A DNA stretch of 64,000 bases, taken from contig NZ_ML708626.1 of assembly GCF_008831305.1 (NCBI RefSeq), positions 1 through 64,000 on the forward strand, read 5' to 3'. Both the position numbers and the translations under genes were made by a program. The notes under the pieces are model-generated. The model ran no database searches and was not told where the DNA came from. It saw only the letters and a list, made by a program, of their open reading frames with translations. How positions within the stretch are numbered: position 1 is the first letter of the stretch; the number at the start of each line of letters is the position of its first letter. This DNA comes from Kocuria coralli (GTDB lineage: Bacteria; Actinomycetota; Actinomycetes; Actinomycetales; Micrococcaceae). Of the stretch, positions 25,424 to 60,731 are shown in pieces.

Positions 25424-26045
25424 TCGTCCCGGTGCCGCGGGCGTTGTAGACCACCACCTCGCCCGCCTCCTTGGCGGCCCTGTAGTCCTCGAAGACCGCG
25501 AGCGCCGAGAGCCGGTCCACCTCGGGCACCACCTCGATGCCCCTCTCCTCGAACTTCCCGATCCAGTCCTCCGGCATCGGCCCCTCGTCGAAGCCCGTCA
25601 GCTCCTCGACCTCGTCACCGTGGCCGGCCAGCACCAGGCGGGTGATCCCCGACCACATCGCCGCCCCGTAGCACTGGACGCACGTGCGCCAGTTGACCAC
25701 CAGCTCGGTCGGCTCGCTCCCGGCTGCTCCCAGGTCCCACTGGCCGCGTTCGACCTGGGCCAGGGACAGCGCCACGACCTCCGCGTGAGCGACCGACAGC
25801 CCGGAGGCCAGTACCCGGTTCACGCCGGCGGCCACGACCTGTCCCGTCTCGCGGCCGACCACCAGGGCGGCGAAGGGGCCCCCGCCGCCGTCGCGCCAGT
25901 TCAGCTCCGCGAGCCGGTTGACCAGTTGGACCTTCTGCGCGTCGGAGGTCAGCCGCGCCGGGAAGGCCCGGAGCTCTTCCCCGACCCAGCCGGGAACGGA
26001 GCAGCCGAAGGATGCGATGGGAGCCGGTTCGGAGGATGCGTTCAT
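25416..26045 (-). CDS. Guanine-deaminase-like nucleoside/nucleobase deaminase
   Basis: A 209-residue member of the cytidine/deoxycytidylate deaminase superfamily. The zinc site is given by SVAHAEVVAL (His ligand and proton-shuttle Glu) and the CVQC pair in RTCVQCYGAAMW; the usual Pro before the first Cys is replaced by Thr. It is longer than tRNA adenosine deaminases and closer to GuaD-type enzymes, which yield xanthine for oxidation by xanthine dehydrogenase. That fits its divergent position to the Mo-hydroxylase operon. The ATG at 26045 is chosen; the upstream extension looks non-coding. Confidence 0.75.
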   Translation of the reverse strand: MNASSEPAPIASFGCSVPGWVGEELRAFPARLTSDAQKVQLVNRLAELNWRDGGGGPFAALVVGRETGQVVAAGVNRVLASGLSVAHAEVVALSLAQVERGQWDLGAAGSEPTELVVNWRTCVQCYGAAMWSGITRLVLAGHGDEVEELTGFDEGPMPEDWIGKFEERGIEVVPEVDRLSALAVFEDYRAAKEAGEVVVYNARGTGTNV

Positions 26046-56521: not shown

Positions 56522-57142
56522 TCAGATGATCGAGGAACCGCCGGCGCGGGCCTTCTCGAGGCGCTGGGCGACGTCCTGCCAGTTGACGATGTTCCACCAT
56601 GCCTTGACGTAGTCAGGCTTGACGTTCTGGTAGTCCAGGTAGAAGGCGTGCTCCCACATGTCCAGCTGCAGCAGCGGGATGGTGGCGAGCGGGACGCCGT
56701 TCTGCTGGTCGTACATCTGCTCGATGACCAGGTTGCCGCCGATGGGCTCGTAGGCCAGGATCGCCCAGCCGGAACCCTGGATGGTGGTCGCGACGGCGGT
56801 GAACTGGGCCTGGAAGGCATCGAAGGAGCCGAAGGCGTCGTCGATGGCGGAGGCCAGCTCGCCGTCGGGCTTGCCGCCCCCGTCCGGGGACATGTTCTTC
56901 CAGAAGATCGAGTGGTTAACGTGACCGCCCAGGTTGAACTGGAGGTCCTTCGACAGCTTGGCGGCACCGGCGGAATCGCCGTTGGCGCGAGCCTCCTCCA
57001 TCTTCTCCAGCGCGGTATTGGCACCGGTCACGTAGGTGTTGTGGTGCTTGGAGTGGTGGAGCTCCATGATGCGCGCGGAGATGTGCGGCTCAAGAGCGGC
57101 GTAATCGTAATCGAGCTCGGGCAGAACAAACTTCTCAGCCAT
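56522..57142 (-). CDS. sodA: Superoxide dismutase (Fe/Mn family)
   Basis: A 206-residue cytoplasmic enzyme that converts superoxide to oxygen and peroxide. Metal ligands are His29 ([14 protein letters not shown]), a His in [13 protein letters not shown], and the Asp and His of [14 protein letters not shown]. Mn is the more common metal in this group, but the sequence alone does not decide. The ATG is preceded by GAGAGGG. Single gene with its own strong terminator. Confidence 0.95.
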
Positions 57143-57229: not shown

Positions 57230-59257
57230 TCAGCCCCGGATCGGCCTGCGGGGAATACACCGGATCCAAGCCCATCCGTGGGCTTCCAGGAGCACCCCGT
57301 GGCGAAGGTCCATCCGGGAATCGTCCTGCAGAGAGGTCGCGTGGGACTGGAATCCGGAGAGCGTCTCCCCGGTGACGTACTGGGTCCAGTCGGAGAAGTT
57401 GGCCAGGCACAGGACCACGCTGCCGTCCTGGCCGGGACGCTGGTAGCCCAGGACGGGCTCGTTGCGGGTGTCGAAATCGATCACGTCCTGACCGTCGAAC
57501 TCTGGAGCGGAGGACCGGATCTGGAGCATGCGCCGGATCGCGCCGTAGAGCCGCCCGGCCACGGAGAACAGGTCATGCCGGGCCGCGATGGCGTCCTGCT
57601 CGATCCGGGTCCGGTTGGCCCACCGGGGGTCGGACTCGTGGCCGGATTCGAGCGACCACAGGGGGTCGTCGAGAACGCCCAGTTCGTCCCCGAGCCAGAG
57701 CTCCGGCACCCCGCACAGGGAGAACGCCACGGCGTGGGCCAGCAGCACGCGGTCGGCGCCCGGGCCGGGCTCATGGCGCACCCCGGCCAGGGAGGCCGCG
57801 GTACCGCACACGCCGACCCCGGCCCGGCCGGACCGCGACGGCGTCACGGGGTTGGCCGCGAAGGAGCCCTCGTACCGGCCGGAGTAGAACTCGCCCAGGA
57901 ACCTGCGGTGCGCGTCGGGGTTCAGCCCGGCGGCTAGGACGACGTCGTCGGAGAACGTCCACTGCAGGGCGTCGTGGTTGCGGACCGGCTGCAGGTAGCC
58001 CTTCCCCTCTGCGGGTCCGCCGCGGTCGCGGAGGTCCAGGGCCAGCATGGTGGCGTCCCTGGTGGCGATCGAGCTCCAGATCAAGGCCGCGCGATCCAGG
58101 CCCTCCGCCACCTGCGCTCCGCCCCCCGGCGTTCGCATCTCAGCGGGGTCGCTGGACTCCAGGACCACGGACGGGGCCACGATCTGCAGCAGGTTGCCCA
58201 GGGCGCTGAGCACCCTGCTGCCCGAGGTGTAGACGTCCGAGCAGCCGACGGCGCCCCGCCACAGCTGCCACGGCGACCCGACCCGGAGCACCTGTGCACC
58301 CAGCCCGGCCACGTGCAGCATCTCCCCGGCCATGCCCAGGAACACCCGGGGGTTAGTCCAGTCCAGGTCCCACTGGTGGGCCTGCTCGGAGGTCCGCACC
58401 CGGCGGCGGTCGGAGGGGTCCTTGGGCGCCATACGCTCCCACGCGGGGCCCTGGGCCCACACGGGGCGCTGCGTCGCGTCACCGGTCGGACCGGCCGGCT
58501 GCACGCAGTAGAACTTCTCGAAGAACGGGTTGCGCCGCACCGCGGCGCGGGCCCACGGGTGCTCGGGGGCGGTGCGGGAGAGCACGACGTCGAGCATCAG
58601 CGAGATGCCGTGCTCCTGCAGCGTCTCGCCCAGTTCGGCGAGCTCGGCCATGGTCCCCAGCTTCGGGTTGGCCTCGCGGTAGGAGGCCACGGAGAATCCG
58701 CCGTCGTCCTGGGTATCGGCGGGCCGGAAGGGCGGCAGGAGCCGCAGGTGCGTGATCCCGAGTTCCCTCAGGTACGGAATGCGTTCCCGCACGCCCTGGA
58801 ATCCGCCGGCCCAGCGGTCGGCATAACAGGCGGCGACGACGGCGTTGCGCGAGTTCCACCACGGGGCATGGTGCTCCCGGTCGGAGTCGACCCCGCGGAA
58901 GTAGTCCGGACGCGCCCTCCAGGAATAGGCGATCAGGGAGCCGAGGTCTCCGATGACCAGCTGCATCTCCTCGGCGCTGACACGTTCGCCGTAGAGCTCG
59001 CGCACCGTGCTGATCAGGGGCTGCAGATAGCGGTCGAGCCGGCTGAGGAACTCGTCGTGCTGCGCCTCGCCGCTCAGGTCCACCTGCTCCAGCCGCGCCC
59101 GGGCCACCGTGAGCAGTTCGGCCACGGTGGCGTCGGGGGCGGGCAGGTCCTGGGCGTCCCTCAACCGGGGCAGCTCCTCGACCACCGCCTCGCCCTGGTC
59201 GCGCTGATCCTGGGCCCCAGCCGCCGTATGGGTGCCCCCGGTCACGATGGAAGGCAC
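57230..59257 (-). CDS. Amylosucrase-like GH13 protein lacking catalytic carboxylates
   Basis: A 675-residue protein aligned by eye with Neisseria amylosucrase over its whole length: N-terminal helical domain, (beta/alpha)8 barrel (THLRLLPPFRPADTQDDGGFSV), and the C-terminal domain with LWLGDELGVLDDPLWS and FDGQDVIDFDTRN. The nucleophile Asp of the RMDAVAFIW motif is Gly327 (VLRVGSPWQLW) and the acid/base Glu of FKSEAI is Ser369 (VLESSDPAE). The region I His is Arg (DVVLSRTAPEH), while the third carboxylate (VRNHDALQWTF) is kept. It is probably a pseudoenzyme or binding protein. The GTG start has GGGAG eight bases upstream. Confidence 0.82.
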   Translation of the reverse strand: MPSIVTGGTHTAAGAQDQRDQGEAVVEELPRLRDAQDLPAPDATVAELLTVARARLEQVDLSGEAQHDEFLSRLDRYLQPLISTVRELYGERVSAEEMQLVIGDLGSLIAYSWRARPDYFRGVDSDREHHAPWWNSRNAVVAACYADRWAGGFQGVRERIPYLRELGITHLRLLPPFRPADTQDDGGFSVASYREANPKLGTMAELAELGETLQEHGISLMLDVVLSRTAPEHPWARAAVRRNPFFEKFYCVQPAGPTGDATQRPVWAQGPAWERMAPKDPSDRRRVRTSEQAHQWDLDWTNPRVFLGMAGEMLHVAGLGAQVLRVGSPWQLWRGAVGCSDVYTSGSRVLSALGNLLQIVAPSVVLESSDPAEMRTPGGGAQVAEGLDRAALIWSSIATRDATMLALDLRDRGGPAEGKGYLQPVRNHDALQWTFSDDVVLAAGLNPDAHRRFLGEFYSGRYEGSFAANPVTPSRSGRAGVGVCGTAASLAGVRHEPGPGADRVLLAHAVAFSLCGVPELWLGDELGVLDDPLWSLESGHESDPRWANRTRIEQDAIAARHDLFSVAGRLYGAIRRMLQIRSSAPEFDGQDVIDFDTRNEPVLGYQRPGQDGSVVLCLANFSDWTQYVTGETLSGFQSHATSLQDDSRMDLRHGVLLEAHGWAWIRCIPRRPIRG

Positions 59258-59654
59258 CGACGGCGCTCCCGTGGGCCCGGTGCCGCGGGATCCGCTACGC
59301 CGTCGCCTGCCGCCGCCCGGCGCCGACCCCTTAGCGGGCAGGAGGTACCCCAGGTCGAGTGGATCGGATGCGGGCTCATGGCGTGCGTTCGAAGTAATCG
59401 TGACTCCCCTGGAATCGGCCTGGAACGAACAGATGTTGCAGGCGGACCTAACTCAGGATCGTCGTTGACACCGAGACTTGCCAAATCCGGCAGTGTGCGG
59501 AGAGACCAGCCGATCTGGGCCCGATCTCGGCGCGGAGCAGAAGCTGCCGACTACTCGCCATACTAGAGAGGTGGCCCGATTTTTGCAGGCCGCCCCCTCA
59601 GCGTCACGCATGGCCCGGCCCGGAGCACGACCGGGGGAACGGTTGAAAGCTCGT
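59258..59654. other. Long upstream region of the GH13 gene
   Basis: Nearly 400 bases without a convincing gene. The GH13 frame stays open upstream to a TGA near 59449 but without ATG, GTG or TTG in good context, so a longer protein from an unusual start cannot be excluded. No clear promoter was assigned. Confidence 0.4.
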
Positions 59655-59720
59655 GTGTCCACACCTCGTCCACAAGGATCCACAGCCTTCTCCACACCGT
59701 TGTCCACAAGCTGTGGACAA
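59655..59720. promoter_or_regulatory. Cluster of six DnaA boxes
   Basis: Nine-base boxes start at 59655 (GTGTCCACA), 59666 (TCGTCCACA), 59676 (GGATCCACA), 59688 (TTCTCCACA), 59700 (TTGTCCACA, consensus) and, inverted, 59712 (TGTGGACAA, consensus). Intervals are 11, 10, 12, 12 and 12 bases, roughly one helical turn each. The last two form a 15-bp palindrome (59694-59726). No dnaA, dnaN or other replication gene is in the window. Confidence 0.65.
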
Positions 59721-59721
59721 C

Positions 59722-59756
59722 GGTGTTCCGCCCGGGTCTCCACCGGGCGGAACACC
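59722..59756 (-). terminator. Terminator of the osmolyte transporter operon
   Basis: Perfect 14-bp arms (GGTGTTCCGCCCGG / CCGGGCGGAACACC) with a 7-base loop, 16 bases past the stop of the binding protein gene. Its GGTGT end is shared with the DnaA-box palindrome, so only one of the two hairpins can form completely. Confidence 0.7.
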
Positions 59757-59771
59757 TTGTGCCGCCTGTGA

Positions 59772-60731
59772 CTAGGCGTCGTAGCCGTTCTGGCTCAGCC
59801 AGTCCTGAGCGGCCTGCTGCGGGCTTACGGCCCCGTCCCCGGAGATGGCCTGGTTGAGCTCGATCAAGTCCTGCGTGGTCAGCTTGGCGGACAGCTCGTT
59901 CAGGGCGTCCTCGGCCCCTTCGGGCAGGCGCCCCTCCGCGGTCAGCGGGATCACCTGCTGGGCCAGGAAGTTGTTCTCCGGGTCCTCGAGCACCACCAGG
60001 TCCTGTTCCTCGATCGCCGGGGTCGTGGTGAAGATGTCCGCCACGTCCACATCCCCGCGGGTCAGAGCTTCCACGGTCAGGGTGCCGCCGCCGTCGTTGA
60101 TGGGCTCGAACGACTGCGGCACGCAGCCGTAGTTCTCCTCGAGCCCGGACAGCCCGTAGGCCCGCTCCTGGAACTCGGGCGGACCGGCGATCACCAGCTG
60201 GCCGCACACGGGAGCCATGTCGGCGATGCTGGTCAGCGAGTACTCGTCGGCGGTCTGCTGGGTCACCACCATCGCGTCCTTGTTCTCCGCCTCGGAGGCC
60301 TCCAGCACCATCAGCCCGTCGGAAAGGGCGTCGGGGAGCTCGTTCATGATCTCCTCGGCGGAGGCCGCCGAGGATTCGGGATCCACGTAGAGCAGGAGGT
60401 TGCCGGTGTAGTCGGGGACCAGGTCGATCGATCCGTCCTCCAGGGCGCCGATATACGCCTCGCGGGCCCCGATGCCCGGTTCCGTGGAGGTCTCCACGCC
60501 CGCATCCTCCAGCACGCCGGCGTAGAGCTCCGCGATGATCTGCGACTCCGGGAAGTCCGCCGATCCCACGGTGACCGACCCGTCGGCCTGCGTGCTCTGG
60601 TCGTCGTCGGCCAGCGGGTCGCCGCCACCGCACGCGCTCAGGAGGAACAAGCCCGCCACGGCGAGCGGCAGAACGGCATGACGGCGGGCAACGCGCCGGG
60701 AACGTGCGGGAAGCTGGGGCGTACGTGACAT
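59772..60731 (-). CDS. Osmolyte (glycine betaine/choline-type) ABC transporter binding lipoprotein
   Basis: A 319-residue OpuBC/ProX-type lipoprotein with lipobox LSAC (Cys34) after an Arg-rich N-terminus. The mature part opens VTVGSADFPESQIIAELYAGVLEDAG, the typical start of the family, with PDYTGNLLLYV and DVDVADIFTTTPAIEEQDLVVLEDP further on. It captures quaternary amines outside the cell. GAGGAG lies six bases upstream of the ATG. Last gene of the four-gene operon, separated from the permease by 78 bases. Confidence 0.9.
   Translation of the reverse strand: MSRTPQLPARSRRVARRHAVLPLAVAGLFLLSACGGGDPLADDDQSTQADGSVTVGSADFPESQIIAELYAGVLEDAGVETSTEPGIGAREAYIGALEDGSIDLVPDYTGNLLLYVDPESSAASAEEIMNELPDALSDGLMVLEASEAENKDAMVVTQQTADEYSLTSIADMAPVCGQLVIAGPPEFQERAYGLSGLEENYGCVPQSFEPINDGGGTLTVEALTRGDVDVADIFTTTPAIEEQDLVVLEDPENNFLAQQVIPLTAEGRLPEGAEDALNELSAKLTTQDLIELNQAISGDGAVSPQQAAQDWLSQNGYDA

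Follow-up and report, generated by a model that had tools for sequence, protein, structure and literature searches.

The window analysed here, a stretch of 64,000 nucleotides corresponding to C17:1-64000 of G000, a Kocuria assembly of 3.43 Mb spread over 70 contigs, contains a compact array of DnaA boxes in the intergenic region between a transporter operon and a gene of the alpha-amylase family. The locus raises the question of what such an array is for at a place with no dnaA gene beside it, and whether it is a product of chance, an attribute of the neighbouring genes or a site concerned with chromosome replication.

The array and its genetic setting

Six DnaA boxes with the core TCCACA lie within 66 bases (59655-59720), five of them on the + strand and one opposed. 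Boxes 1 to 4, all on the + strand, read GTGTCCACA (59655..59663), TCGTCCACA (59666..59674), GGATCCACA (59676..59684) and TTCTCCACA (59688..59696) and differ from TTGTCCACA by 1, 1, 3 and 1 bases respectively, box 3 being the weakest match. Boxes 5 (59700..59708, + strand) and 6 (59712..59720, - strand) are perfect copies of TTGTCCACA that face each other within an inverted repeat with 15-bp arms (59694..59726). Start-to-start steps along the six boxes are 11, 10, 12, 12 and 12 bp, and these coordinates and steps agree with an earlier note on this DNA that had described six phased boxes in 66 bases, 10-12 apart, two of them perfect and opposed. The same note had placed the cluster at the 3' end of a transporter operon, which is indeed its position: the last gene of the operon, beside the array, is a proX-like gene (59772..60731, - strand; PF04069) for the substrate-binding protein of a glycine-betaine-type ABC transporter. 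On the other side, downstream of the cluster, come a GH13 (alpha-amylase family) gene (57230..59257; PF00128) and, beyond it, sodA for an Fe/Mn superoxide dismutase (56522..57142), a flank that is common to Kocuria and part of the genus g3. Both genes are on the - strand, as is proX.

A chance origin of the array was rejected by shuffles, control patterns, the uniqueness of its tandem triple and the comparison of proX loci given below. The first 450 bp past proX hold six TCCACA sites in comparison to 0.30 expected, and none of 1,000 shuffles reached six. Enrichment is confined to the array, the window overall not being box-rich (10 matches to TTWTNCACA with one mismatch versus 7.5 expected). 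Three boxes in tandem with gaps of 3-7 bp occur at one site in the genome, the window cluster, with three overlapping matches, and the reversed control pattern of this triple gave no match in 27 Kocuria genomes. Across the genome, tandem pairs with 1-30 bp between boxes numbered 17, and the control pattern gave 6. Four places hold 11 of these 17 pairs: the dnaA-dnaN intergenic region has 3, the window cluster 4, and the region upstream of dnaB and a cluster at a rhomboid gene on C26 have 2 each; the remaining 6 are each single and equal the control count, so that the four cluster places account for every tandem pair above control level. Similar clusters, whose frequency in the genome had been proposed as a check, are thus not frequent, and the locus carries a cluster of several DnaA boxes outside oriC beyond chance.

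Conservation in Kocuria and position relative to oriC

Of 27 Kocuria genomes, all but G006, in which no proX passed the cut-off, yielded a main copy of the gene, and each of these 26 carries at least three boxes chained in 10-12 bp steps after it. Sought on both strands, such a chain was absent from all seven paralogous Kocuria proX loci, which include three pairs of identical percent identity and so represent about four distinct loci. It was likewise absent from 66 proX loci outside Kocuria (2 of 68, L020 and L034, were excluded with less than 560 bp downstream), and it arose in 2 of 5,200 shuffles. The idea that the array is tied to the proX gene family was rejected, as the paralogous loci lack it. 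One proX locus, L086, lies on a contig titled Vibrio cholerae strain 35D, and its proX is 54% identical to that of Kocuria, like Arthrobacter copies; the record is probably mislabelled or contaminated.

Spacing is kept along with the boxes. In the 560 bp past proX all 26 genomes have a run of three to five TGTGG or TGTGC words on the proX strand, spaced at 10-12 bp and opening with a 12-bp step in every case, and all 57 same-strand box steps of up to 25 bp measured 10 (6), 11 (12) or 12 (39) bp. Summed over the 26 genomes, with 450 bp each, 116 TCCACA sites were observed versus 8.3 expected. With two letters in one box left free to vary, the inverted box pair is present in 21 of 26 genomes; the K. 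palustris lineage (G009 and G010; loci L303 and L302) is without it and has two opposed tandem arrays at the proX locus. Part of the boxes in some lineages are TGTGCACA instead of TGTGGA, with strict TCCACA down to 1-2 per 75 bp, and many relatives have just 2-3 strict TCCACA boxes per 75-bp stretch plus TGTGCACA-type ones. Strict enrichment was not significant in G026 (2 boxes in 450 bp, P 0.061; 1 in 75 bp, P 0.348), and inclusion of TGTGCA brought P to 0.001 or less in each of the 26 genomes.

Mean pairwise identity among five species (G000, G017, G019, G020, G022) was 0.91 in box columns, 0.51 in spacers and 0.41 in the rest, and this conservation of box columns in diverged surroundings agrees with selection acting on boxes and spacing alike. 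The array is also retained in G024, which has no GH13 match, and in G012, which has a GH13 fragment only. Kept despite the loss of GH13 and absent from proX paralogues, the array is tied to its chromosomal place more than to either gene. The boxes are therefore conserved as a unit in relatives, which the earlier note had named as the first check of its proposal.

Base preferences within the boxes point to DnaA as the likely ligand. T at box positions 1 and 2 has frequencies of 0.59 and 0.65 at TCCACA sites past proX (113 sites) and of 0.55 and 0.54 at those behind dnaA (140 sites, 27 genomes), in comparison to 0.27 and 0.28 at other TCCACA sites (88 sites, a few cluster boxes included); since positions 1-2 show the preferences found behind dnaA, the ligand looks like DnaA. 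It could be argued that the repeats are an operator array of a different DNA-binding protein and resemble DnaA boxes by coincidence, as the six boxes share no more than the TCCACA core and box 3 fits the DnaA consensus poorly. This we regard as very improbable, given the agreement at positions 1-2 and the presence of tandem boxes both before dnaB and in the dnaA-dnaN intergenic region, where the Kocuria oriC has the same core and 12-bp step as the array (TTCTCCACA at 25452 and TTATCCACA at 25464 on C4).

In relatives in which the distance can be measured, the array also lies close to oriC. With dnaA located by PF00308 (a search with PF11638, DnaA_N, gave no match in the 27 Kocuria genomes), the two genes share a contig in 15 genomes, and in every one of these about 40-140 kb separates the proX locus from dnaA. 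The gap is about 40 kb in G008, G012 and G025, 43-65 kb in G002, G003, G004, G005, G007, G013, G016, G018 and G023, 82 kb in G020 and 131-138 kb in G009 and G010; in the other 11 of 26 genomes, G000 included, dnaA and proX are on different contigs and no distance is obtainable. The locus is downstream of dnaA in 13 of the 15 genomes and on the other replication arm but turned in G009 and G010, and proX is transcribed with the replication fork in all 15. For G000, with dnaA on C4 and the cluster on C17, we infer nearness to oriC from these relatives. The description of the cluster as lying away from any dnaA gene therefore applies locally but not at the larger scale.

Related clusters in Kocuria and other Micrococcaceae

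A core pattern, consisting of the inverted pair, AAC and then TGTG, was found in 52 of 395 Micrococcaceae genomes and in 12 of 32 genera, with no control matches. In Kocuria it marks the proX locus and a second locus. In 13 of the 14 genomes that carry this second locus on the dnaA contig it lies 13-16 kb from dnaA, the exception being G020 with 39 kb; in G006 the core pattern was found ~1.3 kb from a GH13 fragment. The second locus adjoins a rhomboid gene in both genomes inspected, G000 (C26:26934-26967) and G013. The rhomboid-side DnaA-box cluster of G000 spans C26:26934-27092 and has counterparts in other Kocuria genomes, as does the cluster upstream of dnaB (C4:52979-53167, with the dnaB match from 53292). 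The latter cluster was seen before dnaB in G024, G025 and G000, and arrays of like pattern, candidate counterparts, occur in six more genomes. A separate observation concerns dnaB itself, as the gene of G000 (L116 13292-15895; C4 about 53.3-55.9 kb) gives two partial matches separated by about 1.25 kb and the corresponding frame of G024 (L121) has an insert that resembles an intein; an intein in this replicative helicase gene is probable.

Outside Kocuria, a rhomboid gene lies within about 1.2 kb of 6 of 17 core loci (L243, L244, L245, L254, L256 and L258) and sodA is a neighbour in 4 (L251, L252, L253 and L255), the other seven having different or unassigned neighbours. In the genus g3, 8 of 9 core-pattern genomes, which had been chosen by the pattern, have the pair 0.4-1.3 kb before sodA and in its direction, and in g3 genomes with the pair before sodA no GH13 gene was found between the two. 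When g3 genomes were taken from a sodA search irrespective of the pattern, the pair was present in 2 of 6, and one of the other four has three boxes 3.2 kb away. Neither a three-box cluster nor an inverted pair occurred within 1.5 kb of 23 sodA loci from other genera. In one further genome (G311, genus g31; L247) the core pattern has a different gene pair as its neighbour and, assuming a circular contig, is about 59 kb from dnaA.

Candidate functions of the array

Across Kocuria, six phased boxes are kept as a unit near oriC while their surroundings turn over. The best explanation, which we consider somewhat probable, is that the array titrates DnaA close to oriC, in the manner reported for clusters of Streptomyces coelicolor and Bacillus subtilis, with binding and effect predicted by analogy. 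DnaA would bind the perfect box pair first and might then spread cooperatively along the phased boxes on one helix face. Because it lies close to oriC, the site would be copied soon after initiation and thus doubled early, and the doubled site would withdraw free DnaA from the new origins and so hold back a second initiation. The proX-site array would act jointly with the clusters before dnaB and beside the rhomboid gene. The differences in box number and strength among genomes weigh against this reading, as do the missing inverted pair of the K. palustris lineage and the helical register with a promoter-like motif discussed below.

This reading has precedents in both organisms. Three review sources (PMC10950094, PMC5742627, PMC4585315) describe B. 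subtilis and S. coelicolor clusters, analogous to datA, that repress untimely initiation. Removal of six B. subtilis clusters is described as leading to earlier initiation, strongly only when all were gone, in PMC5295017 and PMC13220808, and PMC4447404 places several high-affinity DnaA regions of this species between genes, beside ordinary ones. B. subtilis is like Kocuria in having several clusters outside oriC, termed oriC-proximal (Okumura et al. 2012); their gene neighbours differ, and early initiation on removal of all six is a B. subtilis result, an effect of this kind being a prediction for Kocuria. The S. coelicolor oriC-proximal clusters (Smulczyk-Krawczyszyn et al. 2006) are likewise actinobacterial and lie outside but close to oriC. 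They reportedly contain boxes of the TTGTCCACA type, with several clusters on the chromosome, and their affinity and deletion phenotype are known, both being matters of prediction for the Kocuria site. E. coli datA is like the Kocuria array a cluster outside oriC, with five boxes conserved between strains, and for its part depends on IHF and promotes DnaA-ATP hydrolysis. It also lies much farther from its oriC. Within the genus, a K. rhizophila paper describes DnaA boxes at oriC (PMC12500396), and no report of the proX-GH13 array was found in a literature search that covered few subscription papers.

The clusters may further be viewed together as an origin-linked DnaA control set, comprising the dnaB, rhomboid and proX/GH13-sodA sites, in which the set, more than any one site, would form the initiation brake of Kocuria. 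Under this speculative extension, which we hold to be rather unlikely as a whole, the proX-GH13 site would predate the split from the genus with the pair directly before sodA, and box number and strength at that site would tune the brake between species. Few loci underlie what is understood of initiation control beyond E. coli and B. subtilis, and Kocuria, an actinobacterial genus of non-filamentous cells, offers sites that are precisely delimited and differ naturally between species, as box number varies and a neighbour gene has been lost in some genomes. With them it can be tested directly whether titration clusters time initiation in Actinobacteria whose life cycle is not that of Streptomyces, and whether promoter control and DnaA titration can be combined in one array.

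Other identities were weighed in comparison to titration. The earlier note had listed oriC-, datA- and DARS-type sites as users of such phasing, and a phased cluster of datA or oriC-proximal kind is supported. An oriC-like origin is unlikely, as the array is flanked by proX and GH13 in place of the dnaA and dnaN of the Kocuria oriC and is without a comparable AT-rich stretch (lowest 40-bp GC of 0.50 within 59300-60100 versus 0.425 in the dnaA-dnaN intergenic region). A plasmid iteron origin was rejected, with no match to a 181-bp query in 72,556 plasmid records and a transporter operon, GH13 and sodA as the identified neighbours. A datA- or DARS-like site would alter the nucleotide state of DnaA by hydrolysis or recharging, beyond binding it; DARS stimulates ADP release from DnaA. 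The inverted pair and phased boxes could bring DnaA AAA+ domains together, and such clusters are, as noted, called analogous to datA in PMC10950094, PMC5742627 and PMC4585315. We nevertheless judge this kind of activity improbable at the locus, as datA requires an IHF site at fixed spacing (PMC4585315) and, in the five-species alignment, no non-box conserved block that could be such a partner site stands out inside the cluster. An effect of DnaA binding on transcription termination, also suggested by the earlier note, has fared worst. The bases past box 6 up to 59756 form a GC-rich hairpin free of boxes (59722..59756, - strand), terminator-like without a T tail, and in this species the inverted repeat overlaps it by GGTGT. 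That the array governs how transcription of the proX operon ends, or arose as a by-product of the terminator, is nonetheless scarcely credible. The four other aligned species keep the boxes and show no such hairpin, and between 15 and over 280 bp separate the proX stop from the array, depending on the genome. An RNA fold model forms the hairpin and the box palindrome side by side and not as mutually exclusive structures, the paralogous proX genes have no array at their ends, and a search for a T-tailed terminator gave none. An Rfam match to Rhizobiales-2 over the palindrome (35.5 bits, gathering 40; E 0.22) was below threshold and was set aside.

The main rival to titration is that DnaA acts here chiefly as a transcription factor for GH13, or for sodA beyond it, and links a sugar or stress gene to the replication cycle; it holds this place because the distances between array and promoter differ by about whole helical turns. 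A conserved promoter-like element identified by motif, CTGCAAAAA...TAGTAT (59553..59588, - strand), lies beyond the array and ahead of GH13, 12-86 bp from the last (nearest) box in five species, and GH13 has a match in 25 of 27 Kocuria genomes. In 17 other genomes the first box is 71-73, 93-94, 105, 158 or 175 bp from a TATGCT-type -10 motif, values near whole turns apart, with a phase concentration R of 0.84 that none of 5,000 random draws equalled, although these genomes are related and represent few independent events and the -10 element is named from its motif alone. Regulation of genes by DnaA at some B. subtilis clusters, as stated in PMC4447404, also counts for this rival. On the other hand, no significant register emerged among the five species closest to the window (R 0.54, P 0.23), the window itself being out of phase, and 4 of 26 genomes have no promoter match. 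The persistence of the array in G024 and G012, as well as the g3 pair directly before sodA, likewise speaks against GH13 as its main target. An absence of helical register between array and promoter was dropped as an argument once the register was seen in the 17 genomes, and this observation moved some weight from titration, previously held as fairly probable, to promoter control, which has risen from a doubtful idea to a tentative possibility that is still rather unlikely. Titration and GH13 control by one array could coexist. Between the promoter-like element and the GH13 start, a stretch on the - strand (59452-59475; CTCGGxGTCAAxGxCGATCCTGAG) is strongly conserved in five species and may possibly represent a short peptide, LGVNDDPELG, or an operator.
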